Both the position numbers and the translations under genes were made by a program. Below, one piece after another: positions 12,081 through 27,024 of a stretch of DNA of 45,821 bases. Every line of letters begins with the position of its first letter. Positions within the stretch are counted from its first letter, which is position 1. Below the pieces are notes generated by a model. The model worked only from the letters and a program-made list of their open reading frames with translations, ran no database searches and was not told the DNA's origin. The stretch comes from Nevskia soli (GTDB lineage: Bacteria > Pseudomonadota > Gammaproteobacteria > Nevskiales > Nevskiaceae): positions 1 through 45,821 of the forward strand of contig JAMFRN010000061.1 in NCBI GenBank assembly GCA_026224805.1, given 5' to 3'.

Positions 12081-12157
12081 GCGCCCGTAGCTCAGTTGGA
12101 TAGAGCACCTGGCTACGAACTAGGGGGTCGGAGGTTCGAATCCTTCCGGGCGCACCA
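12081..12157 (+). tRNA. tRNA-Arg(ACG)
   Basis: 77 bases with encoded CCA. Acceptor GCGCCCG/CGGGCGC, anticodon loop CTACGAA with anticodon ACG, T-arm GAGGTTCGAATCCT. Its 3' end begins the 39-base direct repeat whose second copy is at 16846-16884, marking it as a likely integration target. Confidence 0.97.
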
Positions 12158-12182
12158 CCTGTTTTTGTAAATGTTTCAATAA
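12144..12182 (+). repeat. direct repeat copy 1 (tRNA-Arg 3' end, att-like)
   Basis: 39 bases from the tRNA-Arg acceptor arm (TTCCGGGCG) through AAATGTTTCAATAA. The second copy is at 16846-16884 with 33 of 39 identical. Overlap of the repeat with a tRNA 3' end is the classical layout of a tyrosine-integrase attachment site. Confidence 0.65.
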
Positions 12183-12185
12183 TAT

Positions 12186-12214
12186 AGGCCATCTTTGATG
12201 GCCTTTGTTATTTT
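12186..12214 (+). terminator. terminator after tRNA-Arg
   Basis: Perfect 8-bp stem AGGCCATC / GATGGCCT with loop TTT, then TTTGTTATTTT. It starts 29 bases after the tRNA-Arg CCA. Confidence 0.75.
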
Positions 12215-12300
12215 CGGGCTTTGTGCCCATGTGCCCACGCTGTGCCCGTTTGTGCCCGTACAGCAGGGCGCGGGCCCCATTGCATCGCCGCCATCCATAG
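12215..12300 (-). pseudogene. possible C-terminal remnant of an integrase (very tentative)
   Basis: The hexamer GTGCCC occurs four times in 40 bases (about 12225-12265). Read on the minus strand this stretch encodes GHKRAQRGHMGTK, running toward the tRNA-Arg gene. Integrases that target tRNA genes often end in such low-complexity tails antisense to the tRNA. No catalytic Arg/His/Tyr block is present, so this would be only a scrap. Confidence 0.2.
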
Positions 12301-12341
12301 CTTGGCGCAACGCTAGGACACACTCGTTCGTTTAGTCCCCC

Positions 12342-15200
12342 ATGAGCTTCCTTGCACAGCTACGTCAGCGATCAGATCCCAAACACGACGGAGCTTCGCT
12401 TTGCTACTTGGTACAGCGGGGAGGGGAGCCGCCATCGGCGCACCTGTCGTTGCGTCTGGCCGACGTGCGCGGCGACCGCATGGAGGGTCACGGCACCGCT
12501 TATGTGATCCAGCCAACGCATCTGCATGCGCCTCCTCCCTTTATCAGCGCGGACGACGTTGATGTGCTGTCCGGCCTGGTGGACGCCGATCAGGCTTGGC
12601 TAAGCCGTAGCGCCGGCCAGGCGCCCGGCGGCTGGGCCCTTCTCAATTCGCTGCTCGAGACGCAACGCTGCTTTCTCGATATGTCGGAGCAAGTCCCTTG
12701 CCGGCTGCGGGCCTTGACGCCGCTGAAGGCCGAACTCCAATGGATCATCGATCCAGACGGCCGCCAGCGCCTTCATTGGTCGGTGGACGGGCAGGTGGTC
12801 GCGCTCGCCGGATCGCGCGATCTCGTTGTCTACCAACCCATGAACCACGGTCTGGCACCGCTGCAACATGATCTGAGTGACCCGGCACTGGAGGCAGCAG
12901 CATCCTTTTTCTGCCCACAGACGCCAGAGGCCGTCGAGTCGCTGTTGGCAAATGCTGAATGCTGGCCGGCGCTGGGACTGCCTTTGCCGCAACGGCTGAA
13001 CCTGCGCCGCTTACCCCTGCACCCCAACGCCGTATTGCATTGCGATCTGCCCGCAGGGGGCCTCCAGCCCCGACTCAGGCTGCTGTTTCAATATTCGAGC
13101 GATGAGTGCTGCGTTTGCTTCGTGAACTGGAAAGAGGCAGCCGACTTCCGCTACTGGAACGGTGAGCAACTCATCCAAATCGTCCGCGATCCGGACGCCG
13201 AAGCAGCGTCCGCCGCCGGGCTTGTGGATCGCTTGCGTGGGTTCACGGCCGCAACCGATGGCGGATGGACCGCTGACCCCGGTGCCTGGCAGCAGCTACT
13301 GACCGAGGCACTGCCCGAGCTGGAACAGAACGGGTATCAATGGCGATTCACGCCCGCCTTCGCTCAGCACTTCGCCTGGGCCGAGAACTGGCAGGTCAGT
13401 GTCTCGCCCCAGGATGACAGCCACTGGGAACTGCAGCTGCGCATCTCCATGCAGGGCCGGTCGATTGATCTGATGCAGCTGCTCGCGCAACTTCCACCGG
13501 ACTGCCTGGAGCAGGGGCGAATCCCCCTCCAAGATGGCCGGTTGCTGCTACTGCCGATCAAACAGGCCCGGAGCCTTGCCGCGGAGCTTGGCGACCTGAC
13601 GGGCCAGAGCGGCTCCGGCCGCTTGCCGTACAGCCAGCTCAACCGGCTGGGGGTGGTGGGGCAAGCGCTACCGGAAACAACACAGTGGCTGGATGACACG
13701 GGCTTGCTCGATCGGGCCAATCGTCTCCTCCAACCAGCGCAGACCCTGCCGCTGGTGGACACTGGCCTGCGCGCCACCTTGCGTGGCTATCAGTGGCATG
13801 GCGCCTGCTGGATGCAACACCTCCGCGCATTCGGGGTCAACGGCCTGCTTGCGGATGACATGGGCCTGGGTAAGACCCTGCAAACCATCGCGCATCTGAG
13901 CCTTGAACGCAGCCAGGGCCGACTCACGTTGCCGGCGCTGGTCGTGGCACCGACCAGCCTGCTGCACAACTGGCGCCAGGAGCTGGGTCGCTTCGCCCCG
14001 TCGATGCGATGCTGTGTCGTTCATGGTGCCGCGCGACATCGTCTCTGGACCGCCCTGGGGGACTATGACGTCCTCATCACCAGCTACACGCTGCTGGTCA
14101 ACGACCTCGAGCGGTGGCGGCAGCAGCCCTTGAGCTGGCTGGTGCTCGACGAGGCGCAGTGGATCAAGAATCCGGGAACCCGCGCCAGCCAGGCTGTCCG
14201 GCAGATCGCCGCGGAGCATCGGCTGGCCCTGACTGGCACGCCGGTGGAAAATCATCTCGGCGAACTGTGGTCCATCATGGATTTCCTGAATCCCCAGTGC
14301 CTGGGCTCGGAGCGCAACTTCCGGCGCTACTTCCGTGAGCCGATCGAAGAGCAAGGCGATGCCGCGCGTCTGCAGGTGCTCCTGCAGCGCATCTCGCCAT
14401 GGATGCTAAGGCGCACCAAAGATCAGGTCGCCACGGAGTTACCCCCGAAAACAGTCATCCAACGCAAGGTGCCTTTCGCAGACGGCCAAAAGGATTTCTA
14501 CGAGGAGCTCCGATCAGCCACCTGGTCGGACCTGGATGCCCGCATGGCTGCGACCGAACACACCGGCGAGCAGCGCGTGCTGGTGCTCAGTGCGCTACTG
14601 CGGCTGCGCCAGGCCTGCTGCGATCCGTCGCTGCTGGGGCATCCCGACATTGCATCTGGTAAACGCCAGCACTGTCTGGAAATGATCACAGAGCTGGTCG
14701 AGGAAGGCCGGTCCGTACTGCTGTTTTCGCAATTCACGGCGATGCTGGCTCTGCTGGCGCAGGACCTGCGCGAACAAGGTATCGCGCATCTGGAGTTGAC
14801 AGGGCAAACCCCGGCCGATGAGCGCAGCCGGAGGGTGGCCGCTTTTCAGGCCGGCGAGGCGGCGGTGTTCCTGATCAGCCTCAAAGCGGGCGGCGTGGGA
14901 TTGAACCTGACCCGCGCGGACACGGTGATCCACTACGACCCGTGGTGGAACGACGCGGCCGAACGGCAGGCTTCCGACCGTGCGCACCGTATCGGCCAGG
15001 ATAAACCGGTCTTCGTCTACCAGCTCATCACCGAAGGTAGTGTGGAAGAACGCATTGCCGAACTGCAGCAGCGTAAGGCGCTGCTCGGCGAGCATGTGAA
15101 TCAGAGCGCCCAAGCCAGCGGCCAGCATTTTGCGGTGAAGTTTGAGGAATTGATTGCGTTGTGCCGTCCAGTCGACGAGGAAGGAAGTGCGGATGAGTAA
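12342..15200 (+). CDS. SNF2-family DEAD/DEAH-type helicase/translocase
   Basis: 952-residue SF2 ATPase of the SNF2 group, which remodel protein-DNA complexes by dsDNA translocation. About 490 N-terminal residues are the divergent region seen in bacterial SWIM/SNF2 proteins, but no CxC...CxH SWIM finger is visible. SNF2_N domain: Walker A DDMGLGKT (505-512), Walker B DEAQ (603-606), TGTPVENHLGELWS. Helicase_C domain: VLLFSQFT, SLKAGGVGLNLT, and motif VI QASDRAHRIGQ (876-886). The start ATG 12342 lacks a good ribosome binding site. Its stop overlaps the next gene by 8 bases, so the two are translationally coupled. It lies between tRNA-Arg and a degraded tRNA-Arg 3' copy. The role is unknown; DNA defence or repair are possibilities. 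Confidence 0.9.
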   Translation: MSFLAQLRQRSDPKHDGASLCYLVQRGGEPPSAHLSLRLADVRGDRMEGHGTAYVIQPTHLHAPPPFISADDVDVLSGLVDADQAWLSRSAGQAPGGWALLNSLLETQRCFLDMSEQVPCRLRALTPLKAELQWIIDPDGRQRLHWSVDGQVVALAGSRDLVVYQPMNHGLAPLQHDLSDPALEAAASFFCPQTPEAVESLLANAECWPALGLPLPQRLNLRRLPLHPNAVLHCDLPAGGLQPRLRLLFQYSSDECCVCFVNWKEAADFRYWNGEQLIQIVRDPDAEAASAAGLVDRLRGFTAATDGGWTADPGAWQQLLTEALPELEQNGYQWRFTPAFAQHFAWAENWQVSVSPQDDSHWELQLRISMQGRSIDLMQLLAQLPPDCLEQGRIPLQDGRLLLLPIKQARSLAAELGDLTGQSGSGRLPYSQLNRLGVVGQALPETTQWLDDTGLLDRANRLLQPAQTLPLVDTGLRATLRGYQWHGACWMQHLRAFGVNGLLADDMGLGKTLQTIAHLSLERSQGRLTLPALVVAPTSLLHNWRQELGRFAPSMRCCVVHGAARHRLWTALGDYDVLITSYTLLVNDLERWRQQPLSWLVLDEAQWIKNPGTRASQAVRQIAAEHRLALTGTPVENHLGELWSIMDFLNPQCLGSERNFRRYFREPIEEQGDAARLQVLLQRISPWMLRRTKDQVATELPPKTVIQRKVPFADGQKDFYEELRSATWSDLDARMAATEHTGEQRVLVLSALLRLRQACCDPSLLGHPDIASGKRQHCLEMITELVEEGRSVLLFSQFTAMLALLAQDLREQGIAHLELTGQTPADERSRRVAAFQAGEAAVFLISLKAGGVGLNLTRADTVIHYDPWWNDAAERQASDRAHRIGQDKPVFVYQLITEGSVEERIAELQQRKALLGEHVNQSAQASGQHFAVKFEELIALCRPVDEEGSADE

Positions 15201-16419
15201 AAAGGCGACCACCAGTGCTGGCTTCATCGACATTGGGGCTGTAGACCGGTTCCTCGTCGAGCATGGTTCCTTCACCGTGCTGGACTGGCTTCTCGCCGAA
15301 GGTACGCTGGCCTACGCGGACTACGCCGCCTGGCGCGACGGCAATCGCGAAACACTGGACGAAGCCCTGCCATTGGCGCCCGCCAATGTCGATCACCTGC
15401 TGGCCGAAGTGGACCGTCATGGCCATGCCTTGCACCTCGCCGCCGAATCCAGGGACGTTTTCACCTGGTCGACATCGAATCCGAAGCCGCTGAAGGCCAG
15501 CAAGCGCGCGGAGGCGCATCGTCGGCTCGTTCAGCAGTGGCGACGTGCCAGCCTTGCGCCGCAGTTCGACCTGTTCATGGATAACGCGGCGTCGGTGGCC
15601 GAAAGCCGGCTGTGCGGGACGCTCAGCAGCCGACGGTTCGATGAGGCCACAAGGGACCTGAATGCCCTGTCGCGACTCGACCCCGCGAACAAATCGCTGG
15701 GCCACTACCAGGACCTGATCAACTACGGCCGCCATATACAGACTCCGGCTCCGGCGGACGCGCAGGGCCTTCGCGCGGAGCTGGATGGCCTGGAGCAGGA
15801 AGTCCAGCCGCTGGCCCGGGCGCTGCTCGCGGCCAACGCGCGCGACTACCTGACCCCGGCCTGGCAGCGCCTGGCCAAGGCGCTCAAGGCGCTTCCCGCA
15901 CCGGAAGACCTGGATGATCGGCTGCATGCCAGTTATGCGCTCGCGCAAATCCCGGATTGGGAGGCCGTACGCCAGTGCCTGGAGCCCGAGCCGCAACTGT
16001 TGAAGCGGCCGCGATGGCTGCAGCGCCTGGCCCGGGCCTGCCGCGCAACGGGCAAGCCGGAGGCGGGATTGCTCTGGTGGCTGGTGTGTATTGACCGGCA
16101 TCCGCACGACACCGCTTCGGCGCTGGAGCAGTGCGACGACCCGGTCCTGACCCGGCTATTCAGTGATTTTTTGAGCGTGCAAAACCGCCTTCGGATCGAG
16201 CTGCCTGAATCGGGATTTCCAGGATTTGTCCTGTTGCGACGTCCCGGGTTGGTACATTACCTGGGCGCCGTAGCACCGCTGGAGCGGCCGGAGACCGCCT
16301 TGATGGTCCGCTTGATCGAGGCGCGCCGTGACGGGAAAGACGAGATCGCACTGCGTAAGTCCCTCGGCGAAATCGATCTGGGATTACTGGCGATGTATCT
16401 GCAGGTGGGTATTCGCTGA
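15193..16419 (+). CDS. uncharacterised partner of the SNF2 ATPase (408 residues)
   Basis: Not recognised. Start ATG 15193 has AGGAAGGAAG upstream and overlaps the SNF2 stop (ATGAGTAA), strong evidence for a joint operon. No signal peptide, membrane segment or Cys motif is seen. Residues 1-110 are mixed. About 125-310 looks all-helical, with TPR- or HEAT-like segments (RRFDEATRDLNALSRLDP; KPEAGLLWWLVCIDRHP). The last 80 residues look alpha/beta and are Leu/Arg-rich. It is likely an adaptor or regulator of the ATPase (inference from coupling). No nuclease or toxin signature is visible. A structure prediction would be the decisive view. Confidence 0.85.
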   Translation: MSKKATTSAGFIDIGAVDRFLVEHGSFTVLDWLLAEGTLAYADYAAWRDGNRETLDEALPLAPANVDHLLAEVDRHGHALHLAAESRDVFTWSTSNPKPLKASKRAEAHRRLVQQWRRASLAPQFDLFMDNAASVAESRLCGTLSSRRFDEATRDLNALSRLDPANKSLGHYQDLINYGRHIQTPAPADAQGLRAELDGLEQEVQPLARALLAANARDYLTPAWQRLAKALKALPAPEDLDDRLHASYALAQIPDWEAVRQCLEPEPQLLKRPRWLQRLARACRATGKPEAGLLWWLVCIDRHPHDTASALEQCDDPVLTRLFSDFLSVQNRLRIELPESGFPGFVLLRRPGLVHYLGAVAPLERPETALMVRLIEARRDGKDEIALRKSLGEIDLGLLAMYLQVGIR

Positions 16420-16978
16420 TGAGCAGGCTGAAGTATGAAGTCACCGCTGACCTGCGCCTTGCATGATCGCAGGTCAGCCCGTTTCGGTCGGTGGCGAGCG
16501 TCAACTTTAGGGAGGGCAAACCCTTGTCCGCAGTGGGCGCCCATAGCGGCCACACGCTAAGTGCAACTGGCGCTGCGTAGCGGGAATAAGCAAGCAATGA
16601 TTGCCAGCGATAACGGTGTCGCCGAAGCGAGCGCACTCCAACTGCTCGATTCGGGAGTCGCCGGTGTTGGGTGCATTCGATCTAGAATAGGTACGTAGCG
16701 CATTCTGGCTGGACAATCGGTGTAAATCGGAAGCTAACCGTTCGTCGTCAGCATCAAGGGGGGCGCTTGCGGGGCTTTGTCGTTTCTGCGCTTCCATCTG
16801 CCTGATCTTGCGCTGCTCTCGACCGTCTGCGGCGGTCGAAACTCGTTCCGGGCGTACCGACTGTCTCTGCAAATGTTTCAATAACGGTCGCACCTGATGG
16901 TGCGTGCCGGCACGCCGCCGCCTGGAGTGGGCGGAATGGCGCGCAGGAACAGGCGGCAGCGGAGAAGGTGAACCCCGC
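16420..16978. other. gene-poor stretch between the SNF2 operon and the FAD oxidoreductase
   Basis: 559 bases. I see no convincing gene: open frames on the minus strand are Arg-rich, have no ribosome binding sites and run through the tRNA-derived repeat. It contains the second att-like copy (16846-16884) and then a short hairpin (CGCACC/GGTGCG, about 16889-16904) at the place where the tRNA-Arg terminator lies in the first copy. Confidence 0.5.
16846..16884 (+). repeat. direct repeat copy 2 (degenerate tRNA-Arg 3' end, att-like)
   Basis: TTCCGGGCGTACC through AAATGTTTCAATAA; 33 of 39 bases identical to 12144-12182, including the last 15. Only the acceptor-end segment of the tRNA is present. 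With copy 1 it brackets 4.7 kb holding the SNF2 operon. Six mismatches indicate an old event. Confidence 0.65.
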
Positions 16979-18088
16979 ATGACGGACATGGTTGACTGCG
17001 TTGTGGTTGGCGCCGGTGTGATCGGGCTGGCGGTCGCGCGTCAGCTGGCGCTGGATGGCCACGAAACTCTGCTAGTGGAGCGCCAGGAGGCTTTTGGCAC
17101 CGAGACCAGCTCGCGCCACAGCGAAGTGATTCACGCCGGCATCTACTACTCCGCGGGCTCGCTCAAGGCGCAGCTCTGCGTGCGCGGCCGTGAATTGCTC
17201 TATGAATATTGCGCCGCACGCGGCATCGATCACCGCCGCTGCGGCAAGCTCATCGTGGCGACGCAGCCGGGGCAGATTGCCGATCTGGAGCGCATTGCCG
17301 CCGCGGCGCGGCGCAACGGCGTCGAAGACCTGTATCCGGTTAGCCGCGATGAGGCGCTGCGCCTGGAGCCAAGCCTGCAATGTGTGGCCGCGCTGGTGTC
17401 GCCGTCCACCGGCATCATCGATTCCCACGGCTACATGCTGAGCCTGCTCGGCGATGCCGAAAGCAAGGGCGCGACGCTGGCGCTGCTCAGCACGGTGAGC
17501 GCGCTGCGGCCTGCCGGCGGCGCAGTCGAGCTATGGGTCTCCGGCGAGCCGCAGCCGCTGCTCAAGGCGCGCTGGGTGGTGAATTGTGCCGGATTGCATG
17601 CGCCGGAGCTGGCGCGGCGCATCGAGGGCTTTCCCGCCGCGCAGGTGCCGCGCGCCTGGTACGCCAAGGGCAACTATTTCACGCTGGCCGGCCGCGCACC
17701 GTTTTCGCGGCTGATCTACCCGGTGCCGGAACCCGGCGGGCTCGGTGTGCATCTGACGCTGGATCTTGGCGGCCAGGCCCGGTTTGGTCCCGATGTGGAA
17801 TGGATCGACGCGCTGGACTACAGCGTCGACCCGCGCCGATCCGGGCAGTTCTACGCCGCCATCCGCGCTTACTGGCCGCAGCTGCGCGACGGTCAGTTGG
17901 CTCCGGCTTACGCCGGCATCCGGCCGAAAATCTCCGGCCCCGGTGAGCCCGCCGCCGACTTCCGCATCGACGGTCCTGTCGTGCATGGCGTTGCGGGCAT
18001 CGTCAACCTGTTCGGCATCGAGTCGCCGGGTTTGACCGCCTCGCTGGCGATCGCCGAACGCGTCGGCGAGATCGTTGCCGGCGCCTGA
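16979..18088 (+). CDS. FAD-dependent oxidoreductase, L-2-hydroxyglutarate oxidase-like (DAO family)
   Basis: 369 residues with an N-terminal Rossmann FAD site ([15 protein letters not shown], residues about 8-22) and the family block [24 protein letters not shown], shown here in part ([10 protein letters not shown]), characteristic of L2HGDH/LhgO-like proteins. These oxidise L-2-hydroxy acids and pass electrons to the quinone pool or oxygen; the exact substrate is not visible. Start ATG 16979 has AAGGTGA about eight bases upstream; the frame is open further up but Arg-rich. It is flanked by two tRNA-derived scars, so it may have moved with the accessory region. Its stop lies six bases before the tRNA-Ser scar. 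Confidence 0.88.
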
Positions 18089-18417
18089 TCCATCGGGTTC
18101 GAATCCCGCTCTTTCCGCCATTCAGCATTCGCAGACAAAAGCACAGGCCGCGCTCTGCGCCGAGCGCAATTGCGATATGCTCGTTGCGGATGGGAACAAG
18201 AACTAGATCACTAATTTTGGGAGCGCGCGCAACCAGGTTCCAGGCTGCCGGCACTTATCAATGCTCCGGGAGCAATCCGCGGTAATCTCTTCCAGGGTGC
18301 ATGGCAGCATTGCCTGGCTCACGATCTCGCGGCTGTGATGCAGCGAATCAAATGATTTGGCATGCTGATCGAAAGCCGGCCTGGCCAGGCGGAAAACGGA
18401 AGATAGGGGAGTCATTC
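18089..18417. other. intergenic stretch with tRNA-Ser relic
   Basis: 329 bases without a convincing gene. It starts with the tRNA-Ser 3' copy (18095-18128), whose similarity continues patchily through AAAAGCACA (18137-18145), matching the real tRNA-Ser/tRNA-Arg spacer. The rest shows nothing recognisable apart from the amidase ribosome binding site. Confidence 0.5.
18095..18128 (+). repeat. copy of the tRNA-Ser 3' end and trailer
   Basis: 34 bases, GGGTTCGAATCCCG...CCGCCATTCAGCAT, identical to 12021-12054 except one C-to-T. It covers the T-arm, acceptor strand, CCA and eight trailer bases of tRNA-Ser(GCT); the 5' part of the tRNA is absent. It is either an attachment-site remnant or the tail of a broken duplicate gene. 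Confidence 0.75.
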
Positions 18418-20004
18418 ATGCGCGGAGTGCGGGCATTCCATTTGCTTTTCGGCGCTGTTCTGTCGCTGTCGGCGACGCTGGTCCCGGCGGCCGATGCCGC
18501 GGCGGCGGATCCGGTGCCGGCCGAGCCGGGCATTGCGCAGCTGCACGAGGATATTCGCGCCGGCCGCTATGACGTGCGTACCGTCGAATCGCACTACGAA
18601 GGGAGAATCCGCAGCATCGACCGCAGCGGCCCGACCCTGCGCGCCGTCCTCGAAGTCAATCCCGATGCGCCGGCCATCGCGGCGCAGCTGGATGCGTCCA
18701 AAGGCGCTCGCGGTCCCCTGTTCGGCGTGCCGATCCTGCTGAAGGACAACATCGATACCGCGGATCAGATGCTGACCACCGCGGGCTCGCTGGCCCTGGT
18801 CGGCTCGAAGCCGGCGCAGGATGCATTCATCGTGCGGCGCCTGCGCGAGTCGGGCGCCGTGATTCTGGGCAAGACCAATCTCAGCGAATGGGCCAATTTC
18901 CGCTCCAAACGCTCCTCCAGTGGCTGGAGCGGGCGGGGCGGGCAAACCCGCAATCCCTATGCGCTGGATCGCAATCCCTGCGGCTCCAGCGCGGGTTCCG
19001 GCGCGGCCGTTGCCGCCGATCTGGCGGTGGTCGCGGTCGGTTCCGAAACCGATGGCTCCATCGTCTGCCCGGGCAGCGTCAACGGCATCGTTGGCATCAA
19101 GCCGACCGTGGGGCTGGTGTCGCGTTCCGGCATCATTCCGATCTCGGCCAGCCAGGATACGGCGGGCCCGATGGCGCGCAGCGTTGCCGACGCGGCCGCC
19201 CTGCTCACGGTGCTGGCGGGCTATGACCCGGCCGATCCCGCCACCGCTCCGCTGCGCACGCAGAAGCCGATCGACTACAGCGCCGCGCTCGACCCGCATG
19301 GATTGAAGGGCGCGCGGATCGGCGTGCTGCGCCAATACGCGGGCTTCCATGAGGAGGTCGACGGCGTGTTCGAGAAAGCCCTCGACACACTGCGGGCCCA
19401 AGGCGCCGTGGTGGTGGACAAGGTCGAAATCCCCAACCAGGACAAGCTCGATGCCGACGAGACGACGGTGCTGCTCTATGAATTCAAGGACGGCATCAAC
19501 CGGTATCTGGCGGCGCGTGTCGGCACCGGGCCGCGTACCCTCGCGGACCTGATCGATTTCGACTTGCGCGAAGCGGCGCGCGAAATGCCATATTTCAGGC
19601 AGGAGCTGTTTACGGATGCGCAGGCCAAGGCCGGCTTGACCGATCCCGAATACATCGCCACCAGGGACCGGGTGAAGCGCCTCGCCGGTCCGGAAGGCAT
19701 CGACGCCGCGCTGGCCAAGGACAAGCTCGATGCCCTGGTGGCGCCGACGCTGGGAGCGGCCTGGACCACCGATCTGGTCAACGGCGATCATTTTCTCGGC
19801 GGCGGCGTATCGACGCCTGCGGCGGTAGCCGGCTATCCGCACATTACCGTCCCTATGGGGGCGGTACATGGGCTGCCGGTGGGCCTGTCCGTGATCGGCC
19901 CGGCCTGGAGTGAATCCCGCCTGATCCGCTATGCCTACGCCTACGAGCAGGCGAGCGCCGCCCGCAGGCCGCCGGAATTTCATACTACTGTGGCTGGCGA
20001 ATAG
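18418..20004 (+). CDS. exported amidase (amidase signature family)
   Basis: 528 residues; hydrolyses an amide bond of unknown substrate. Start ATG 18418 has AGGGGAG seven bases upstream and gives a signal peptide (basic start, hydrophobic core, ending near AADAAAA), so the enzyme is probably periplasmic. The Ser-cisSer-Lys triad is visible: Lys109 in LLKDN, Ser190/191 in CGSSAGSGAA and Ser214 in ETDGS. Family relatives include AtzF, GatA and peptide amidases; the export signal and single-chain form argue against GatA. An open frame from 18301 has no signal and is rejected as start. A hairpin follows the stop. Confidence 0.92.
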   Translation: MRGVRAFHLLFGAVLSLSATLVPAADAAAADPVPAEPGIAQLHEDIRAGRYDVRTVESHYEGRIRSIDRSGPTLRAVLEVNPDAPAIAAQLDASKGARGPLFGVPILLKDNIDTADQMLTTAGSLALVGSKPAQDAFIVRRLRESGAVILGKTNLSEWANFRSKRSSSGWSGRGGQTRNPYALDRNPCGSSAGSGAAVAADLAVVAVGSETDGSIVCPGSVNGIVGIKPTVGLVSRSGIIPISASQDTAGPMARSVADAAALLTVLAGYDPADPATAPLRTQKPIDYSAALDPHGLKGARIGVLRQYAGFHEEVDGVFEKALDTLRAQGAVVVDKVEIPNQDKLDADETTVLLYEFKDGINRYLAARVGTGPRTLADLIDFDLREAAREMPYFRQELFTDAQAKAGLTDPEYIATRDRVKRLAGPEGIDAALAKDKLDALVAPTLGAAWTTDLVNGDHFLGGGVSTPAAVAGYPHITVPMGAVHGLPVGLSVIGPAWSESRLIRYAYAYEQASAARRPPEFHTTVAGE

Positions 20005-20006
20005 CA

Positions 20007-20033
20007 CCTGGCAGGCATCGGGCGCCTGTCAGG
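20007..20033 (+). terminator. hairpin after the amidase, possible terminator
   Basis: CCTGGCAGGC pairs with GCCTGTCAGG (one G-T pair) around a 7-base loop, starting three bases after the amidase stop. There is no T-run, so termination is uncertain. Confidence 0.4.
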
Positions 20034-20143
20034 AAGCAAGATCAACCGCTGATTCCAAGCTAATGTTTTACAACAATAAAAGCTGCTGGTGGCCTGCCTG
20101 TTTTTAAGTAGAGGGATAAGAAATCTTATAGCTGGAAACAATT

Positions 20144-20163
20144 ACGTCATAATTACTTGACGT
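20144..20163. repeat. perfect dyad ACGTCA-N8-TGACGT
   Basis: Six-base perfect arms around TAATTACT in AT-rich DNA, 23 bases after another dyad (ATAAGA/TCTTAT, 20116-20129). Operator-like, but no adjacent gene is evident. Confidence 0.35.
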
Positions 20164-20553
20164 GCCTGAAACGCCCCGCTACGCTCGGCCGGTAAGCAGA
20201 CATTTTCCAGTATGGAAAGTTCCATGGCCAAATCGGGAGGTAGAGCAGTTCGACGTGTCAGGAAATTCATCGACGAAACTATCAGTGCGCAGGCTGCCGA
20301 TGCAGGCGTACCAGGTAGTCATGATGGGCAACATTGAAAATCGCCAGTCACTCCAGGGGCGAGTTATGGATGGCATGCGGCATGTCTTGTTTGATCGCCG
20401 TTTGGAAGTCCATGTTCCGGAGAGCCGGAATGGCAGCTGGCAGAACTACATCTGAGGAATCGCGGACCAGACGGAATGCTTGAATAAGCATGGACACCGA
20501 TGTGACGTCCGGTCTGGTGTAAAGAATGGTTGCGACCGCATCAAAACACGCGG

Positions 20554-20589
20554 TGTTGCGGACAGATGCAGGATGTTGCGGACAGATGC
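20554..20589 (+). repeat. two tandem copies of a 16-base word (20-base period)
   Basis: TGTTGCGGACAGATGC occurs at 20554-20569 and again at 20574-20589, identical, with similar 4-base spacers. Such paired words are common at ends of insertion sequences, but no transposase is near. Confidence 0.5.
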
Positions 20590-20727
20590 TGTGTCTATTT
20601 AGGGGCAGGTTTCGAGCAGTTCACAAGCGTAAATTACCGATGTTGCCGGGGCATTGAACTTTCATGCTTTTTTGGGGATGCCTGCAGTCGTTAGCGACGT
20701 ATTGAATTCGACCTAGGGAGATTGATG

Positions 20728-23496
20728 ATGAGACTGAGTACCGACGGAAAACTTCGTCTGGCTGCAAGAGTTGCGTTTGTTGCAAGTTTGGGGACCATTG
20801 CCGGCGCAGCGAATGCGCAGGATACAACTACGCAGTTGGGCTCCGTGGTGGTCACCGGATCGATGATCAAGCGGGCCGATGCCGAAACCGCGGAGTCCGT
20901 CACCGTCCTCCACGCGGATGCCCTCAAGGCTCAGGGCATCACGAGTGTGGAGCAGGTGCTAAGCACGCTGACCTCCGCCACCCCGTCGATCAACATCGCC
21001 TCAGTCGTAGGCACGTTTTCCGGAGGCGGTACTTACGCCAACTTGCGCGGCCTGGGCAATGGCCGCACCCTGGTGCTGCTTGATGGCCAGCGGCTGGCTC
21101 CCAATGCCTTCAGCGGCCTTGGCGTCGATCTGAGTGGTATTCCGTTCTCGGCCATCGACCGCGTCGAAGTTCTTCATGAAGGCGCCTCGGCACTGTACGG
21201 CTCGGACGCGATCGCGGGCGTGATCAACTTCATCACCAAGAAGAGTGCCCAGGGGGGCACTATCGAGGGCACTGTCGACGTACCGAAGGAAGCCGGCGGC
21301 TCCCAGATCCTGGGCGATCTCAGCTACGGATACGGGAATCTGCGGAAAGACGGCTATAACGTCCTGGTCACGGGAAGTTACAACCAGGCCAATGAAATCC
21401 GGGCGACGCAGCGGGCTTTTTCCGCCCAGGGTTTTAACCCCGCCGACGGTATCACCGCTACGAATTATCCGGGATCGTGGCCCGGGAACGTTCTGGATGC
21501 CAACGGTAACCTTTGGCAGTCGGGCTATCCGGGCTGTTCGGGCAATTCGCAACTGACCACGTATTTCGGCGACTGCTCATATCGTTATTCAGCCGCGACG
21601 GATCTGCAACCGCAGGCCGATCAGATTTCCGGGCTGCTCCAATTGACCAAGACGCTGCCGCTCAACAACCAGATCAAGGCGCAGTACATCTTGGCGCACT
21701 CCGAGGTGAACGGCTATTCCGGGCCCATGTTCTATGATTTCACAATGAACCCGGCGAGCCCCTACTACCCGACGGCGTCGCAGCTGACTTGCAATAGGGG
21801 CGCGGCGAATTGCACTGTAAATGGCGTTGTTACCACAACGCCGGATCTCACCGATCCGATCCAGGCGATCTGGACCGACCCCAACAACTCCCGCTACTCC
21901 GGCGCCGTCAATCTTGAGCAGAGGCTTCTGCTGACGTTCTCCGGCAACAACGCCGGTTGGGACTACTCTACGGACTTCAATTGGAGCAAGAACCTCAACA
22001 ACAATCGCAATACCGCGGGCTATCCCAATGAAGCCATCCTTGCGCCCGGCGGTGTCCTCAGCGTTCTGATCAATCCTTTCGGTCCCCAGAGCGTGGCCGG
22101 ACAGAATTTGATCAACTCGTCGTACATCAACGGCAACTTCCAGACCGGCACGTACACCCGCTGGAGCTTCGACGGCAATGCCAGCCACGAGCTGGGCGAT
22201 GCTTTCAATGCGGGCACGCCGGCGACCCTGGCGGTCGGCTTCACGATGAGCACCGAGCAATACGTGAACTCGACCACGCCCTATAACGTGCTTGTGCAGT
22301 CCGCAACCGGACTGAGTAATAGTGCAGTCTCAGGGCAGCGTCAGATTCAGGCGGCTTTCTTCGAGTTGGACGTGCCGATTAGCAAGACCATCGATATCGA
22401 CTTATCGGATCGTGAGGACCGGTATAGCGATTTCGGCACAACCAACAACGGCAAGGTGTCGGCGCTGTTTCATCCCTTCAGTTTCCTGACGATCAGGGGA
22501 TCCGCCTCCACCGGCTTCCGGGCGCCCACGCTTGCCAACCTGTACACGCCACCTTTCCTGGCAGCGTCGAGCAGCGGCACCATGGGAAATGGGAACCCGG
22601 ACTGCAACCCGACGCCCACCGGCGGGATATGGACTGCATCCACTTGTAATGCGCAAGGAATCGGGCTGTACGGCGGAAACAAGAGCCTGACGCCCGAAAC
22701 ATCGAGAAACTTTGATCTCGGTGTGGTCCTCTCACCGACTGCGGATTTGGGAATCACGGCGGACTTTTTCCGAGTCATGGTCGACAACGCCATTGGCGGC
22801 GTTCCGTCCAGCGCCATTTACGGGAATCCCGCCAACTTCGCGAGCTATATCGTACCGGCCACTACCGGTACTTACGCGGGAACACTCCCGCCGACGATCG
22901 CAGAGGCCAACGTGTGCCAGCCTTACACGTCAACGTCGTGTGGATATATCAGTCTGGCAAATTCGAATACCGGCTTTGCCACGACCAGCGGAATCGATTT
23001 GAGCGTCCAGTACAAGCAGCATACCCCGGTCGGAACGTTCAGCGAAGACCTGGAAGGAACCTGGGTCACGGTGTTCAAGGAGCAGCAATACACTGGCGGG
23101 CCGACCCTGAATTTGTTGGGCAATCTGCAAGTCCAGGGACTTAACCCAGCGTACAGGTGGCAGCATGACGTGAGGGTCGACTGGACGAGTCTGGGGAAGA
23201 TGTGGGGTGGCGGACTGAGCGACCGCTACTACTCGGGGTACGCTGATGAATTCGGCAGTGGCCCCAGCAACACCGGCCCTGTGCCGCATGTGGACGCTTA
23301 TTCGCTCATTGATGGTTACGCGAGCGTGACGCCGTTCCAGAAGTTCACCGTGATGGTTGGAGTTAAAAACATCTTCAACACGAAACCGCCGCTCACCAAT
23401 GCATCGCAAAACAACTTCGCGTCTGGCTACAACGCGCTCGTTGCGGACCCGCGGCTGCGGAATTTTTATCTCCGTATGACATACAGTTTCCTGTAA
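20728..23496 (+). CDS. TonB-dependent outer-membrane receptor
   Basis: 922 residues; a beta-barrel transporter driven by TonB/ExbBD. Start ATG 20728 (20725 also possible) has AGGGAG seven bases upstream. The signal peptide ends AANAQ. The plug domain (about 40-170) has VVVTGSMIKR, LRGLGNGRTLVLLDGQRL and ALYGSDAIAGVINFITK, the pattern of OAR/Caulobacter-type receptors; the barrel ends FYLRMTYSFL. The ligand is unknown; no Fur or other operator is seen. Codon use is less GC-extreme than in the housekeeping genes. A strong terminator follows. Confidence 0.94.
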   Translation: MRLSTDGKLRLAARVAFVASLGTIAGAANAQDTTTQLGSVVVTGSMIKRADAETAESVTVLHADALKAQGITSVEQVLSTLTSATPSINIASVVGTFSGGGTYANLRGLGNGRTLVLLDGQRLAPNAFSGLGVDLSGIPFSAIDRVEVLHEGASALYGSDAIAGVINFITKKSAQGGTIEGTVDVPKEAGGSQILGDLSYGYGNLRKDGYNVLVTGSYNQANEIRATQRAFSAQGFNPADGITATNYPGSWPGNVLDANGNLWQSGYPGCSGNSQLTTYFGDCSYRYSAATDLQPQADQISGLLQLTKTLPLNNQIKAQYILAHSEVNGYSGPMFYDFTMNPASPYYPTASQLTCNRGAANCTVNGVVTTTPDLTDPIQAIWTDPNNSRYSGAVNLEQRLLLTFSGNNAGWDYSTDFNWSKNLNNNRNTAGYPNEAILAPGGVLSVLINPFGPQSVAGQNLINSSYINGNFQTGTYTRWSFDGNASHELGDAFNAGTPATLAVGFTMSTEQYVNSTTPYNVLVQSATGLSNSAVSGQRQIQAAFFELDVPISKTIDIDLSDREDRYSDFGTTNNGKVSALFHPFSFLTIRGSASTGFRAPTLANLYTPPFLAASSSGTMGNGNPDCNPTPTGGIWTASTCNAQGIGLYGGNKSLTPETSRNFDLGVVLSPTADLGITADFFRVMVDNAIGGVPSSAIYGNPANFASYIVPATTGTYAGTLPPTIAEANVCQPYTSTSCGYISLANSNTGFATTSGIDLSVQYKQHTPVGTFSEDLEGTWVTVFKEQQYTGGPTLNLLGNLQVQGLNPAYRWQHDVRVDWTSLGKMWGGGLSDRYYSGYADEFGSGPSNTGPVPHVDAYSLIDGYASVTPFQKFTVMVGVKNIFNTKPPLTNASQNNFASGYNALVADPRLRNFYLRMTYSFL

Positions 23497-23539
23497 ATTC
23501 CTTCAAAAAGTTTGGTTAGAGCGGTAGATGAAAATTGAG

Positions 23540-23570
23540 AGCGGCGCACATCGTGCGCCGCTTTTTTTTT
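23540..23570 (+). terminator. intrinsic terminator of the TonB receptor
   Basis: Perfect 10-bp stem AGCGGCGCAC / GTGCGCCGCT with loop ATC, followed by a run of nine T. 44 bases past the stop. Confidence 0.9.
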
Positions 23571-23608
23571 GCGCCATGCCTGGCGCTGCCGCCCCCGGCT
23601 TCCATCCC

Positions 23609-23657
23609 TGGCCAATTTTCAATGCGCAGAGATGGTCAATTTTCGGTGAGCGCCAAC
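23609..23657. mobile_element. possible IS21-family terminal repeat remnant
   Basis: TGGCCAATTTTC (23609) and TGGTCAATTTTC (23633) recur with a 24-base period, followed by GGTGAGCGCCAACA. Repeated TGGNCAATTTTC plus GTGAGCG resembles the multiple terminal repeats of IS21-type elements as I remember them. No istA/istB genes are in the window, so at most a solitary end remains. Confidence 0.35.
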
Positions 23658-23910
23658 AGGTTCTAGGCCTGTAAGCCGTACTCACCCGAGCCCAGCGCCC
23701 CTGCGGAGGGTGCAATTCGGGGAAGTTTGCAGTCATCCAGCCCCGGCGGAACTCCGCCGTGGCTTTTGTGGGAGATGCAGGGCAGCGATCACTGCCGGGG
23801 CTGCGTCAAGCAGCCATCAGCGCGTTCAAAACCGTCGGGCGCGATCAGATGCCAAAGTTGCCAAGCCCCGCTCACCCCCGCTCACCGTGGGCTGGACGGA
23901 ACTTTGCCGC

Positions 23911-24216
23911 CTAGCGGGTGATGCTGGGATCGAGGTTGGTCAGCGCCCCGCCGACCGTGGTGGAGCCGGTGCGATCTATGTCTTCCCTGCTGTAACTGCG
24001 GCCGTTGACCCGCAGGCAGTTACCGGCTGCCGGTTTGATGGCGCTGCCGGTTTCGGTCAGGCAGCGCGATCTGTCGGCGCTCGAGGCGCCGGCTGTCGCA
24101 TCCGCTTTTGTTGCATTCACCGTCGCGTCCGCGCTGGCCGTGGCCGTGCTCTGGGCATAGGCCGCCGTTCCGAAGAGAGATAGAAAGCCTATCAATATCA
24201 ATCGTCTGTGTGACAT
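23911..24216 (-). CDS. small exported protein with TonB-plug-like C-terminus (101 residues)
   Basis: Start ATG 24216 has GGAGG five bases upstream and gives a signal peptide (MSHRRLILIGFLSLFG..AYAQ). Then comes an Ala/Thr/Asp-rich linker (about 22-47), two Cys (Cys52 and Cys67, possibly a disulfide), and a C-terminal block, residues about 73-100, GRSYSREDIDRTGSTTVGG then ALTNLDPSI. That block resembles the beginning of TonB-receptor plug domains (EDI-RTG-TTV-DAL). No barrel follows. The function is unknown. It faces the TonB receptor gene convergently. Confidence 0.7.
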   Translation of the reverse strand: MSHRRLILIGFLSLFGTAAYAQSTATASADATVNATKADATAGASSADRSRCLTETGSAIKPAAGNCLRVNGRSYSREDIDRTGSTTVGGALTNLDPSITR

Positions 24217-24360
24217 GGGTGCCTCCATGCAGGCCGCCGTGAAGAGGCGGCTGGCCTGGATAATGTGACATATAAAGCCGATTTTGGTTCCTCGGCGGAA
24301 TAAGGCAATTTTCGGGTGGCAGCGAAGCTTGTTGCCCGAACTTTCCCGGCGAATCGAAAC

Positions 24361-24387
24361 GGCATGGGCGGCACCGCCGCCCATGCC
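24361..24387 (-). terminator. hairpin after the DUF2135/TPR gene
   Basis: Perfect 12-bp stem GGCATGGGCGGC / GCCGCCCATGCC with loop ACC, 18 bases past the stop on the minus strand, followed by GTTTCG. Strong stem, weak T-run. Confidence 0.6.
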
Positions 24388-24404
24388 GGCAAACCCCGAT
24401 GCGC

Positions 24405-25604
24405 TCAGTTGGATCGCTGCCGCAGCCGGCTGATTGCGGCGAGGTATACGTCGCTGTGTTTCTCGTTTTCGGCGGCCTGATAGCTGCCCAGCGCCTTGGC
24501 CCATTCCGACTTCGATTCGTAGATGCGCGCGATGTTGTAGTAGGAGCTGGCGCGCACTCGCGCCGCGTCCGGGCCGTTAGCCAAGGCAATGGCCTTGCGA
24601 TCGGCCCAGATGGCCTCGGCTTCGTTGCCGGCTTTTTCGAAGGTCAGGCCGAGGTTGCTGTAGGCCTGGCCGTAGCCGGGAAAGAGCTCGATGGCCTGCT
24701 GGAACAGGCGGATCGCGGTGTCGTAGTCCGTGCGCCGGTAGGCGGCTTCGCCGTCGCGGTTGAGCTCGTTTGCCTGCACCCGGTCGTTGGCGCTGACGGG
24801 GCGGCTGGAAACCTGCAGGGGGCCGTTGAAATCGTTCGCAAGTGCAGTAGCGACATCTTCGGGATGCTCGACATCGCTGTACTGGTCCAGGTCTTCCAGA
24901 TCGCCGCTTTCGCTGATGGCGAACACGCTCCACAAATTGCCCTTCTTCGCCGGATCGATGGTGTAGCTGCGCACCAGCGTCTGTCCGACATAGACACGCA
25001 CCTGCGGCCGGCCCAGTTCCATCGCGTTGCTGCCGCTCAGTTCCCGGTCGATGTAGTCATGCACAGCGTAGACATAGCGCTGTCCGGGATGGCGGTTCTG
25101 GATGGTGATGGTTTCCGGGCCGTAGCCCGAGGTGTGATCGACGTCCAGCGCCGATTCGTCGCCTTGCTTGGCGTTCCAGTAGACATGCTGCCCCGGATAA
25201 ACCAGATGTGCGTCCAGGTCGAGCGGGGTGGCGCCCCAGTTCAGCACCACGCGCAGGCCGTCGAGCTGCTGCATCACCGGGCTGATGGCGTAGCTGAGCC
25301 CGTTGCAGGGGCACTTGGCCACCAGGGTCGAGTATCCGGCCTTGCGGATGATCAGGGCGGCCAAGGGGTCATCGGCGGAAAACTGGATGGCGCCGTGGAA
25401 ATTGCCGTCGGCGTCGCTGTAGCCGTGGGCGCTCTGCTGGCCGTTCTTTTGCAGCAGCACTTCGGCCTCGCCGATTGCCTGGTCCTTGACGGTGGCGCTC
25501 AATACATGGATCTCGACCGGTTCGGCCCGGGCAATGGTGGCGCAGGCCATCAGGCCGATGGCGCCAATGGCATGCGGAAGGAAATGGATGGTGTCACGGT
25601 TCAC
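24405..25604 (-). CDS. exported DUF2135/YfaP-like protein with C-terminal TPRs
   Basis: 399 residues from GTG 25604, which has GGGAG seven bases upstream; the frame continues upstream without a signal. Signal peptide to about residue 27 (ending TIARA). About 30-110 is a carboxypeptidase-regulatory-like fold (GEAEVLLQKNGQQSAHGYSD). About 115-210 matches the YfaP/DUF2135 type (VVLNWGATPLDLDAHL, VHDY). About 270-395 holds three TPR-like units (GEAAYRRTDYDTAIRLFQQA). Probably a periplasmic or surface protein-interaction factor; function unknown. It is divergent from the sorbosone-dehydrogenase-like gene. Confidence 0.78.
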   Translation of the reverse strand: MNRDTIHFLPHAIGAIGLMACATIARAEPVEIHVLSATVKDQAIGEAEVLLQKNGQQSAHGYSDADGNFHGAIQFSADDPLAALIIRKAGYSTLVAKCPCNGLSYAISPVMQQLDGLRVVLNWGATPLDLDAHLVYPGQHVYWNAKQGDESALDVDHTSGYGPETITIQNRHPGQRYVYAVHDYIDRELSGSNAMELGRPQVRVYVGQTLVRSYTIDPAKKGNLWSVFAISESGDLEDLDQYSDVEHPEDVATALANDFNGPLQVSSRPVSANDRVQANELNRDGEAAYRRTDYDTAIRLFQQAIELFPGYGQAYSNLGLTFEKAGNEAEAIWADRKAIALANGPDAARVRASSYYNIARIYESKSEWAKALGSYQAAENEKHSDVYLAAISRLRQRSN

Positions 25605-25797
25605 GTTGCTCTCCCTGGATGTTGGCTGATGCCGGCCGGGAGTATTGGCGTCGGCCGTGCAGCGGCATCGGCCGCTCCATGCAAACGCCGCGAAACTGTG
25701 TGCGGATTCCGTGCGTGGTGTTTTCTGCGCTGATGTCACTGCTAAGCTGCCTCCATCGCGTCATGCCTGAGCCTGGGCACACAGGAGGATTGAAGCC

Positions 25798-27024
25798 GTG
25801 ATCAAGAGCACAGCGCTGCGAAAGTTGGCGTTCGCCCTGCTGTTGATGCTGACTGCCGGTACTTCTACGGGGGCAACCCCGGCGGGGCAATACAGCACGT
25901 CCGGTGACTGTGATGGGTTTCCCCGCGTGGATCTGAAAACCGCGCCTGGACTTTGCGTCGGACTGGTGGCAACGCACTTGGGATTCGCCCGTGGCGTGGT
26001 GGCGCTGGGTCCGGATATTTATGTCGCGGACATGGGCGGCTGGCACCGCAAGCGCGGGCGGATTCTGCGCCTGCAGGCAAAGGGGCAGGGCAAGCCGAAG
26101 GTATTGCTGAGCGGACTCGACGAGCCGAACGGCCTGGTCCCAGGACCGGACGGCTCGCTCTATGTCGGCGTGCTGGGCAAGGTGATCCGCTTCGATCCGA
26201 AAGCTGCCAACCCGTCCCAAAGTGTGAGGGAAATCGTGACCGGCTTGCCCGACAGCGGCCGCCATCCGCTGATCGCCCTGGTAACGGCTGCGGACGGCAC
26301 GCTGTTCATCAACCTGGGTTCCGCCACCGACCATTGCGAAAAAGACGATGGCAGCGCCCCCGATCCGGCGCTGCCCTGTCCTGAAACGCTTGCCACGCCG
26401 CCGCGCGGCTCCATCCTGCGCATCATGCCGGGCAAGGATGCGGTGGATGCCCGTACGGTCAAGCCCTACGCCACCGGCCTGCGCAACGACATGGCTCTGG
26501 CGGTATTGCCCTCGGGCCGGCTGCTGGCCGCGAGCAATGCCCGCGACTACATCAACAGCGCCGACCCCTCCCTGTCGGACGAGGAACTGCCGCACGAGCC
26601 CTACAACCGGGTGGAGCCGGGCGCCGACTACGGCTGGCCCTATTGCTACGACAGCAAGCTCGCCAGCCCGGAATACCCGACATTCGATTGCAGCGCCAAG
26701 CAGGCGCCGACCCTTCTGCTGCCCGCTCATGCGGCGCCGCTGGGCATGCTGCTGTACCGGGGCAAGGCACTGGCCGGGCTCGATGGCCAACTGCTCATCG
26801 GCTACCACGGCTATCGCGCCAAGGGACATCGCATTGTCAGCCTGGCGGTGGACGGGCAGGGCCAGCCCCTGGGTGAGCCGCAGGATCTAGTGGCAGGCTG
26901 GGACTACGCCGAAGGCGCCCATCCGCAGGGCGCGCCGGTGGCCCTGTGGCAGATGGACGATGGCAGCGTCCTGATCAGCGAGGACCACAACGGCACCCTG
27001 CTGCGTCTGGCGGCGCAGCATTGA
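25798..27024 (+). CDS. exported glucose/sorbosone dehydrogenase-like beta-propeller protein
   Basis: 408 residues from GTG 25798 with AGGAGG nine bases upstream. The signal peptide ends near TGA. The body is a six-bladed propeller of the soluble PQQ glucose/sorbosone dehydrogenase type: LDEPNGLVPGPDGSLYVG, GSILRIMPG, TGLRNDMALAVLPSGRLLAASN, GADYGWPYCY and EDHNGTLLRL are family blocks (GWPYCY near the C-terminal third is typical). It likely oxidises a sugar or aldose in the periplasm if PQQ is available; the substrate and cofactor cannot be shown. No cytochrome is fused. Confidence 0.85.
   Translation: MIKSTALRKLAFALLLMLTAGTSTGATPAGQYSTSGDCDGFPRVDLKTAPGLCVGLVATHLGFARGVVALGPDIYVADMGGWHRKRGRILRLQAKGQGKPKVLLSGLDEPNGLVPGPDGSLYVGVLGKVIRFDPKAANPSQSVREIVTGLPDSGRHPLIALVTAADGTLFINLGSATDHCEKDDGSAPDPALPCPETLATPPRGSILRIMPGKDAVDARTVKPYATGLRNDMALAVLPSGRLLAASNARDYINSADPSLSDEELPHEPYNRVEPGADYGWPYCYDSKLASPEYPTFDCSAKQAPTLLLPAHAAPLGMLLYRGKALAGLDGQLLIGYHGYRAKGHRIVSLAVDGQGQPLGEPQDLVAGWDYAEGAHPQGAPVALWQMDDGSVLISEDHNGTLLRLAAQH

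Follow-up and report, generated by a model that had tools for sequence, protein, structure and literature searches.

To our knowledge, few functions have been assigned to bacterial SNF2 ATPases other than RapA and those belonging to a handful of defence systems. Among the defence systems, Zorya has ZorA/ZorB genes alongside and DISARM has drmA/B/C genes. The sliding clamp, to which we relate one such ATPase below, is the ring that keeps DNA polymerase on DNA. Bacterial clamp binders named in parts of two reports are Pol III alpha, Pol II, Pol IV, Hda, MutL and RecB (PMC11139829; PMC13254535), and the clamp motif of RecB, treated in part of the second report, serves as a precedent. Sections of PMC11139829 give the clamp-binding consensus as QL(S/D)LF and its general form as Q-phi-x-[L/M]-[F/L], with QLDLF as the strongest binding peptide, Asp slightly favoured at position 3, Leu and Met as the only residues known at position 4, flanks that are mainly acidic, and known sites that include internal loops. 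An SNF2 motor acting on a sliding clamp has a eukaryotic precedent in ZRANB3, through its PIP-box (parts of PMC12841045).

Here, we analysed a 45,821-nucleotide stretch of DNA from Nevskia soli (the window), in which an SNF2 gene and a partner gene lie next to a tRNA gene. The features of the locus are as follows:

12081..12157, + strand: tRNA-Arg(ACG), with the gene pair at its 3' end (ARAGORN)
12279..16419, + strand: shared mobile unit, made up of the two genes and a little upstream DNA, with 85.8% DNA identity to L017 199-4337 (genome G001)
12342..15200, + strand: SNF2-family ATPase, 952 aa (ORF and Pfam)
13731..15101, + strand: core of the two-lobe SNF2 motor, spanning about residues 464-920 (extent of the Pfam and PADLOC matches)
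15193..16419, + strand: partner protein, 408 aa, ATG at 15193 and stop at 16419, no named family
15232..15546, + strand: N-terminal domain of the partner, spanning about residues 14-118; elsewhere it forms a small protein of its own beside SNF2 genes
15562..15582, + strand: QFDLFMD at residues 124-130, a motif predicted to bind the beta sliding clamp (DnaN), in a loop predicted to be disordered (conservation, pLDDT, consensus and chance rate)
15586..16416, + strand: partner C-terminal domain, putative helical repeat, possibly in a TPR-like arrangement
16764..16792, + strand: native DNA may start again here (blastn identity of 95.8-96.6% across 24-29 bases)
about 16830-16885, + strand: degraded copy of the tRNA-Arg 3' end plus about 20 following bases (local score and BLAST)

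The SNF2 motor and its relatives

The SNF2 protein of the window is a complete two-lobe motor of the SNF2 superfamily. Pfam recovered the whole SNF2-rel_dom profile (2e-68) and positions 7-110 of 110 of Helicase_C (3.4e-23), and the protein contains the strings DDMGLGKT (505), DEAQ (603), LTGTP (630), FSQF (795), KAGGVGLNL (848) and DRAHRIGQ (879), which we take to be the SNF2 motifs. These results bear out the first-pass annotation, which had read an intact SNF2 ATPase with all motifs, and the ORF coordinates agree with its 8-base overlap between the two genes (15193-15200). By sequence, the nearest solved chain was 1z63 (E 6.3e-90). The N-terminal region (about residues 1-455) is beta-rich, and the AlphaFold model of the protein had a mean pLDDT of 80.3 and a pTM of 0.51.

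The same motor core is found in bacterial SWIM-SNF2 helicases, and several relatives of the window SNF2 keep SWIM whereas the window protein does not. The N-terminal SWIM motif (CxC..CxH) was absent from the SNF2s of the window, G001, L018 and L019. Of the 14 paired SNF2s compared, 6 carry it, and contig ends truncate some of the remainder. Two NCBIfam models scored below their cut-offs, namely SCO1167/SCO6262 (424.4 vs 1200 bits) and the pilus expression-regulating Snf2, pilus_reg_Snf2 (409.9 vs 1100 bits). DpdE, ZorD and DrmD matched essentially the motor core alone (about 464-920), with NCBIfam scores of 68 bits against a cut-off of 500 for DpdE (best PADLOC match, residues 464-920 only), 230.7 against 1500 for ZorD and 66.7 against 950 for DrmD. 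RapA also has an SNF2-type motor, and here the window protein reached 28 bits against a cut-off of 576. Companion genes of Zorya, DISARM or Dpd were not found among the three ORFs downstream and one upstream of the pair, which matched no PADLOC family at 1e-5.

A modular partner family with a predicted clamp-binding motif

Searches of Pfam, PADLOC and NCBIfam left the partner unmatched at E<=1, so that the earlier description of an unassignable 408-residue helical protein still stands. Reciprocal profile HMMs identified homologues, members were found in 44 genomes or records in all, and by this sequence evidence the partner is a real protein family; in an alignment of 16 homologues (A1), one was 86% and the others 23-44% identical to the window partner. 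Solo partners in the same genus had been suspected of being shadow ORFs because of composition bias, and this was rejected on reciprocal HMM values of 1e-35 to 1e-57. The AlphaFold model of the window partner had a mean pLDDT of 86.3. A search for a known fold, with the profile against sequences of solved structures, gave nothing under E 0.25, and a viral structure library gave nothing under 0.16.

Sequence comparison also indicates that the family is modular, its two halves occurring separately in other bacteria and plasmids. The N-terminal domain alone lay next to or near SNF2 in all four cases found (L163, L164, L166 and L167). The helical domain alone was present on plasmids of Burkholderiales. 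At 9 of the 10 loci examined its beginning carries QLDLF or QLDIF close by, and the tenth (L207) has a partial ORF only.

Between the two domains lies QFDLFMD, the main feature here, which the first-pass annotation had missed. Across 42 non-redundant homologues, Q124 was kept in 42, D126 in 41, F128 in 40 (Leu in the other two) and D130 in 42, and by relative entropy these columns ranked 14th, 19th, 5th and 18th, respectively. In the AlphaFold model only residues 1-10 and 121-129 had pLDDT < 50, and the motif loop of the isolated protein is therefore predicted to be disordered, which is what a short linear motif would lead one to expect; the loop runs directly into a helix. QFDLF agrees with the Q-phi-x-[L/M]-[F/L] form given in part of PMC11139829, its Phe at position 2 being hydrophobic, not aliphatic, and the motif is probably exposed, in the predicted disordered loop here and close to the N-terminus of the plasmid forms. 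Among 501 other ORFs, some of which are not real genes, one had the strict pattern Q[LMF]D[LM]F. Variants among homologues were QFDLL (two), QKNLF (one) and QADLF (one); the partners of G004, G010, G014 and G016 have QGDLF, with a non-aliphatic second residue, and 7 of 9 plasmid forms have Ile at position 4. We consider the predicted clamp-binding motif well supported, and infer from it clamp binding itself. In a separate scan, a loose clamp motif was seen inside 2 of 28 SNF2 ORFs, vs 13 of 501 other ORFs with a loose pattern that was close to it but not the same (25 of the 28 had no adjacent partner, and the L112 SNF2 was left out).

As in the bacterial clamp binders described in parts of the cited reports, the partner combines a short Q-phi-x-[L/M]-[F/L] motif with a flexible place and an acidic flank. 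Unlike them, it is a putative helical-repeat adaptor of an unnamed family, is often gene-paired with SNF2, and has no recognised catalytic domain. ZRANB3 resembles the proposed pair in that a Q-containing short motif brings an SNF2 motor to the clamp, whereas its PIP-box, APIM and HNH nuclease are in one chain, according to parts of PMC12841045; in the window a second protein carries the motif, no nuclease was seen, and homology is claimed for the motor alone.

Pairing and mobility of the two genes

SNF2 adjoins the partner in 16 of the 44 partner-bearing genomes or records; none was seen beside it in the other 28, of which the G181 and G035 contigs end on the SNF2 side. Among 369 sampled genomes of the class, SNF2 (E<=1e-90) was found in 13 of 14 partner-bearing genomes vs 86 overall (P 3e-8, uncorrected for relatedness), and the fourteenth, G355, contains sizeable SNF2 fragments at two ends of contigs. 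Because SNF2 is far commoner than the partner (86 genomes vs 14 at E<=1e-10 for the partner), the SNF2 family can work without it. Partner-adjacent SNF2s were clustered on the tree (6 changes vs a shuffled mean of 13.3; 0/500 as low), and SNF2 and partner distances were correlated (r 0.45, 1/5000 permutations; 0.38 and 48/5000 without G001). The co-occurrence and the distance correlation are partly explained by shared ancestry. The stand-alone two-component system suggested by the first-pass annotation is thus not strict: the genes are often paired elsewhere, but many genomes have the partner without an adjacent SNF2, and G004, G010, G014 and G016, all of the same genus, have it with no SNF2 at E<=1e-20, the very situation which that annotation had named as counting against its proposal. 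No recurring replication or repair gene was seen near the partner. Beside one solo homologue (L036) lies a photolyase-like gene.

The SNF2-partner pair is a mobile, compact accessory cassette. Of the 18 genomes of the genus, 2 contain it, each time close to a different tRNA gene, the copy in G001 lying 0.57 kb from tRNA-Met; blastn joined the window and L017 in one 4141-column match that ends at the partner stop codon. csrA, tRNA-Ser and tRNA-Arg are together in 15 of the 18 genomes, and the pair adjoins them only in its own genome (in the other 14, up to 1.5 kb downstream of tRNA-Arg was covered, about 60-100 bases in L039 and L042). The expected tRNA linkage and variable presence among relatives were therefore found. 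Synteny with relatives, based on DNA matches, showed that collinearity between G008 and the window begins at 25879, which in G008 corresponds to about 1 kb past its tRNA-Arg, and the whole of 12158-25879 is therefore extra relative to G008. A defence island was also considered and rejected, PADLOC on the SNF2, the partner, 9 + 5 neighbours and one further copy of the partner itself (G506, locus L170) having given no consistent defence context.

The pair had been placed between tRNA-Arg and a degraded copy of its 3' end. Both were found (local score of the copy 54 vs a best of 28 in 200 shuffles; BLAST match 16836-16884), but the copy need not be the footprint of the pair's insertion. Positions 16764-16792 match DNA closely following tRNA-Arg in G001 and G006, over only 24-29 bases, so that the return to native sequence may lie at about 16764, ahead of the degraded copy. 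Downstream in G001 stands another copy of its tRNA-Arg 3' end, and the pair is not there.

Possible roles of the pair

It is fairly probable, in our judgement, that the partner is an adaptor by which the SNF2 translocase is tethered to the DnaN clamp and so acts at forks or in repair. The 408-aa protein would dock on DnaN through the exposed QFDLFMD, its N-terminal domain would most likely hold the SNF2 translocase, and its putative helical-repeat domain would be the scaffold. At forks and repair sites, the pair would bring a translocase of double-strand DNA to DNA loaded with the clamp, and there the SNF2 would clear proteins away or remodel blocked forks or intermediates of repair, much as ZRANB3 works on PCNA in eukaryotes, with the clamp motif on a separate subunit. 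Besides clamp binding, it is the partner-SNF2 contact and the fork or repair role that we infer here.

A clamp-tethered factor for replication, partition or stability of plasmids and islands, and not for host repair, seems rather unlikely, though it draws on the C-terminal module matching 26 Burkholderiales plasmid records (20 over at least 80%), variously near genes annotated as DNA-binding protein (4 loci), toxin-antitoxin, H-NS, HU or integrase in 10 plasmid loci, and on SNF2 genes about 5-6 kb from the module on pBPHY02 and on pHG1 of Cupriavidus necator H16, where the module is WP_041688822.1 and the SNF2 is WP_011154101.1. However, annotated neighbours at several full-length partner loci are ordinary metabolic or surface genes, and no integrase lies beside the window pair. 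Plasmid matches came solely from other family members, none from the window partner as query. The suggestion that QxDLFxD is only a structural linker without clamp contact, in a partner acting as SNF2 regulator or chaperone, is quite improbable: short motifs can match by chance and a helix directly follows the loop, yet the five-residue match has an acidic flank and predicted disorder, is conserved across divergent members, and persists near the free N-terminus of truncated plasmid forms.

Anti-phage or anti-plasmid defence, in which the partner would use the clamp to sense or reach foreign forks and SNF2 would block or mark them, is unlikely, and slightly more so than service to mobile DNA. 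The pair is patchy, mobile and tRNA-linked, and the Zorya and Dpd SNF2 motors match its motor core; but of 9 neighbours at 5 loci only two matched PADLOC, a cNMP-binding protein whose hits to TIR-effector and Pycsar models are probably due to the cNMP domain, and an AAA_14/DUF4143 protein that hit a candidate family. Five further neighbours matched nothing in PADLOC, partner homologues without SNF2 exist, and tblastn of the window partner against 50,697 phage records gave no match. A pattern scan of viral contigs, sensitive to close relatives only, gave no match to the G279 partner. Of the defence or DNA-repair role first proposed, replication and repair is now the better half, with no clear defence genes among the neighbours scanned.

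Returning to the clamp-tethered translocase, a fuller version is put forward tentatively, as a reading about which we are nearly evenly divided but lean against: a mobile bacterial machine in which a modular adaptor (SNF2-docking domain, QLDLF motif and helical scaffold) would recruit an SNF2 translocase to the clamp, as a functional counterpart of ZRANB3-PCNA of independent origin, split over two genes, with halves also used separately. No bacterial SNF2-clamp link was described in the titles and abstract openings listed, chiefly of open-access literature. The partner would add a protein family to the clamp interactome, which part of PMC13254535 calls incompletely defined. A clamp motif on an often gene-paired partner offers a testable action site, DnaN-loaded DNA, for part of the large SNF2 family and, if true, the eukaryotic logic of an SNF2 motor plus a sliding clamp would be present in bacteria.

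The SNF2-partner gene pair and its insertion site

The window is a single contig of a genome in 267 contigs (84% complete), and the following features were located on it:

12081-12157, +, tRNA-Arg(ACG)
12342-15200, +, SNF2 ATPase, intact
15193-16419, +, partner protein, 408 aa

The partner start overlaps the SNF2 stop by 8 bases. Motor families were the only Pfam matches of the SNF2 protein, and the partner had no match in Pfam, PADLOC or NCBIfam. The solved chain nearest in sequence to the motor was 1z63 (E 6.3e-90), from Sulfolobus. A degraded copy of the tRNA-Arg 3' end follows at about 16830-16885 (score 54 vs 28 for the best of 200 shuffles). Several TGTGCCC repeats were noticed at 12225-12262, just past tRNA-Arg and upstream of the SNF2 gene.

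Among 18 genomes of the genus, csrA, tRNA-Ser and tRNA-Arg were grouped together in 15 and the pair was present in 2; it was absent after tRNA-Arg in the 14 of these 15 other than the window's genome, within a visible stretch of at most 1.5 kb (much less at two contig ends). The other carrier, G001, has this 4.1 kb unit (window 12279-16419) at 85.8% identity, with the match ending at the partner stop codon, 0.57 kb from tRNA-Met; the gene region flanking it on that contig is common to 13 other genomes of the genus. Since G001 has this segment near tRNA-Met and its tRNA-Arg locus is without the pair across 4.6 kb up to the contig end, the two-gene unit is mobile. No integrase gene was recognised beside the pair. 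The public record of the G001 locus (L017) is titled Verrucomicrobia bacterium, and the genome was placed in the window's genus by the search tool. G001 also has a second copy of the tRNA-Arg 3' end ~170 bases downstream (L068, 2038-2305), without the pair, followed by two tandem 562-aa ORFs, alike at the start and on the other strand.

The tRNA-Arg site has a layered history, because window 16764-16792 matches DNA after tRNA-Arg in G001 and G006 (over 24-29 bases) and the entire 12158-25879 is extra compared with G008. The degraded tRNA copy may be older than the insertion of the pair. Downstream of the pair, 16764-25879 is a further insertion that is missing at the same site in G008; its ORFs, named by eye as FAD oxidoreductase-like, amidase-like and TonB-receptor-like, had no PADLOC match at 1e-5.

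Distribution of the partner family and its association with SNF2

A single-sequence search found partner matches in 15 of 194 genomes, and profiles from nine near and eight far members matched each other at 1e-35 to 1e-57. In profile surveys, which are samples with often short contigs and each take in the window's own genome, the partner was detected in 14/369 genomes of the class, 10/58 of the family and 20/398 of the phylum, the last including an N-terminal-only match (G717). Counting once each genome or record whose homologue extends past residue ~220, and excluding a weak partial match (G069), we obtained 44 in all: 10 from the family, 13 more from the class, 18 more from the phylum and three named records (L018 from Pseudomaricurvus, L019 and L020). 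A same-strand SNF2 gene adjoins the partner in 16 of the 44 (the window, G001, G147, G184, G279, G367, G387, G424, G428, G447, G506, G573, G612, L018, L019 and L020), and adjacency cannot be judged in G181 and G035, whose contigs end on the SNF2 side. In G573 a 764-base gap containing a 150-aa ORF separates the two genes, and the SNF2 of L020 is divided into two ORFs. Similar-looking unassigned proteins of ~150 aa were seen in L163 (7035-7487, between SNF2 and partner; no Pfam match) and L170 (10991-11437, upstream of SNF2). In L026, a cNMP-binding-domain protein (14154-15053) directly upstream of an SNF2-partner pair matches PADLOC TIR-effector models, probably due only to this domain.

The partner can exist without SNF2, because solo homologues occur in the window's own genus: G004, G010, G014 and G016 have a homologue and no SNF2 at E<=1e-20, and in G016 it lies behind a MoeA gene. 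The association was examined in comparisons that only partly account for shared ancestry: SNF2 at E<=1e-90 was present in 13 of 14 partner-bearing genomes of the class sample vs 86/369 overall; in a 54-row SNF2 tree, where partner-adjacent sequences are not one clade and one long row (L164) was flagged unreliable, the partner-adjacent label takes 6 changes vs 13.3 when shuffled (0/500 shuffles as low); and SNF2 and partner distances correlated over 14 pairs (r 0.45, 1 of 5000; without G001 0.38, 48 of 5000). The exception in the class sample, G355, has SNF2 pieces that run off two contig ends. A further comparison of this kind, a direct search of 23 partner-bearing genomes from the class and phylum, found SNF2 on the same criterion in 20. 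G147 and G184 carry, besides the partner-adjacent SNF2, another without a partner in a different clade. The N-terminal SWIM zinc motif is kept in 6 of 14 paired SNF2s and absent from those of the window, G001, L018 and L019.

A predicted clamp-binding motif and modular architecture

The AlphaFold model of the window partner (mean pLDDT 86.3, pTM 0.82) has only one internal segment with pLDDT under 50, residues 121-129. This loop is predicted to be disordered yet strongly conserved, which points to a binding motif. It overlaps QFDLFMD (residues 124-130), where 42 non-redundant homologues keep Q124 (42/42), D126 (41/42), F128 (40/42, Leu in 2) and D130 (42/42), all ranking 19th or higher in conservation by relative entropy. 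The family motif is mostly Q[LMFG]DLF-x-D, with QFDLL (2), QLDMF, QADLF and QKNLF (one each) as exceptions. According to a review, the beta-clamp consensus is QL(S/D)LF and the strongest peptide QLDLF; Asp is slightly preferred as third residue, the flanks are mostly acidic, and the motif can also sit in internal loops (PMC11139829). Of 501 other ORFs of 200 codons or more from the loci compared, not all of them real genes, one contained strict Q[LMF]D[LM]F.

In L163, L164 and L166 the counterpart of the N-terminal ~115 residues forms a protein of its own (118-140 aa) that abuts an SNF2 gene; these proteins stop close to the motif position, either just short of it or a little past it, and are without the motif. 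In L167 this domain lies within a 264-aa protein two genes past the SNF2 gene, and no such motif was seen in it. The helical domain matched 26 Burkholderiales plasmid records, 20 of them across at least 80% of the query; two plasmid proteins checked matched the profile at 5e-49 and 2.5e-51. Of 10 plasmid loci examined, nine (L191, L192, L202-L206, L208 and L209) have QLDIF (7) or QLDLF (2) near the start; the tenth, L207, is a partial ORF only, and L210 and L211 duplicate two of the ten records. In all nine the profile match begins at the motif and the N-terminal domain is absent. The analysed ORFs of L191, L192, L202 and L206 extend upstream of annotated starts that sit just before the motif. 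Plasmid pHG1 of Cupriavidus necator H16 has two SNF2 genes, one on each side just under 6 kb off, and pBPHY02 has one about 5 kb from the helical protein. Plasmid helical proteins are variously near genes annotated as DNA-binding protein, H-NS, HU, toxin-antitoxin or integrase.

Judged from these sequences, full-length partners join an SNF2-travelling domain to a putative clamp-motif module. This suggests, without proving, that the partner bridges SNF2 and the clamp.

Possible role of the pair

The first-pass annotation had proposed a two-component system possibly related to defence or DNA repair. Neighbourhood scans gave no clear support for defence, a reading that the patchiness and mobility of the pair keep alive. 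We give roughly even odds that the pair acts at forks or in repair rather than in defence or for plasmids. Clamp binding by the partner is predicted and very probable, and physical contact between SNF2 and partner is somewhat favoured. The eukaryotic SNF2 protein ZRANB3 acts analogously, using a PIP-box to work on PCNA (PMC12841045), and a 2026 paper reports that RecB binds the bacterial clamp via such a motif (PMC13254535). Our reading is that the partner is an adaptor through which an SNF2 translocase docks on the clamp.
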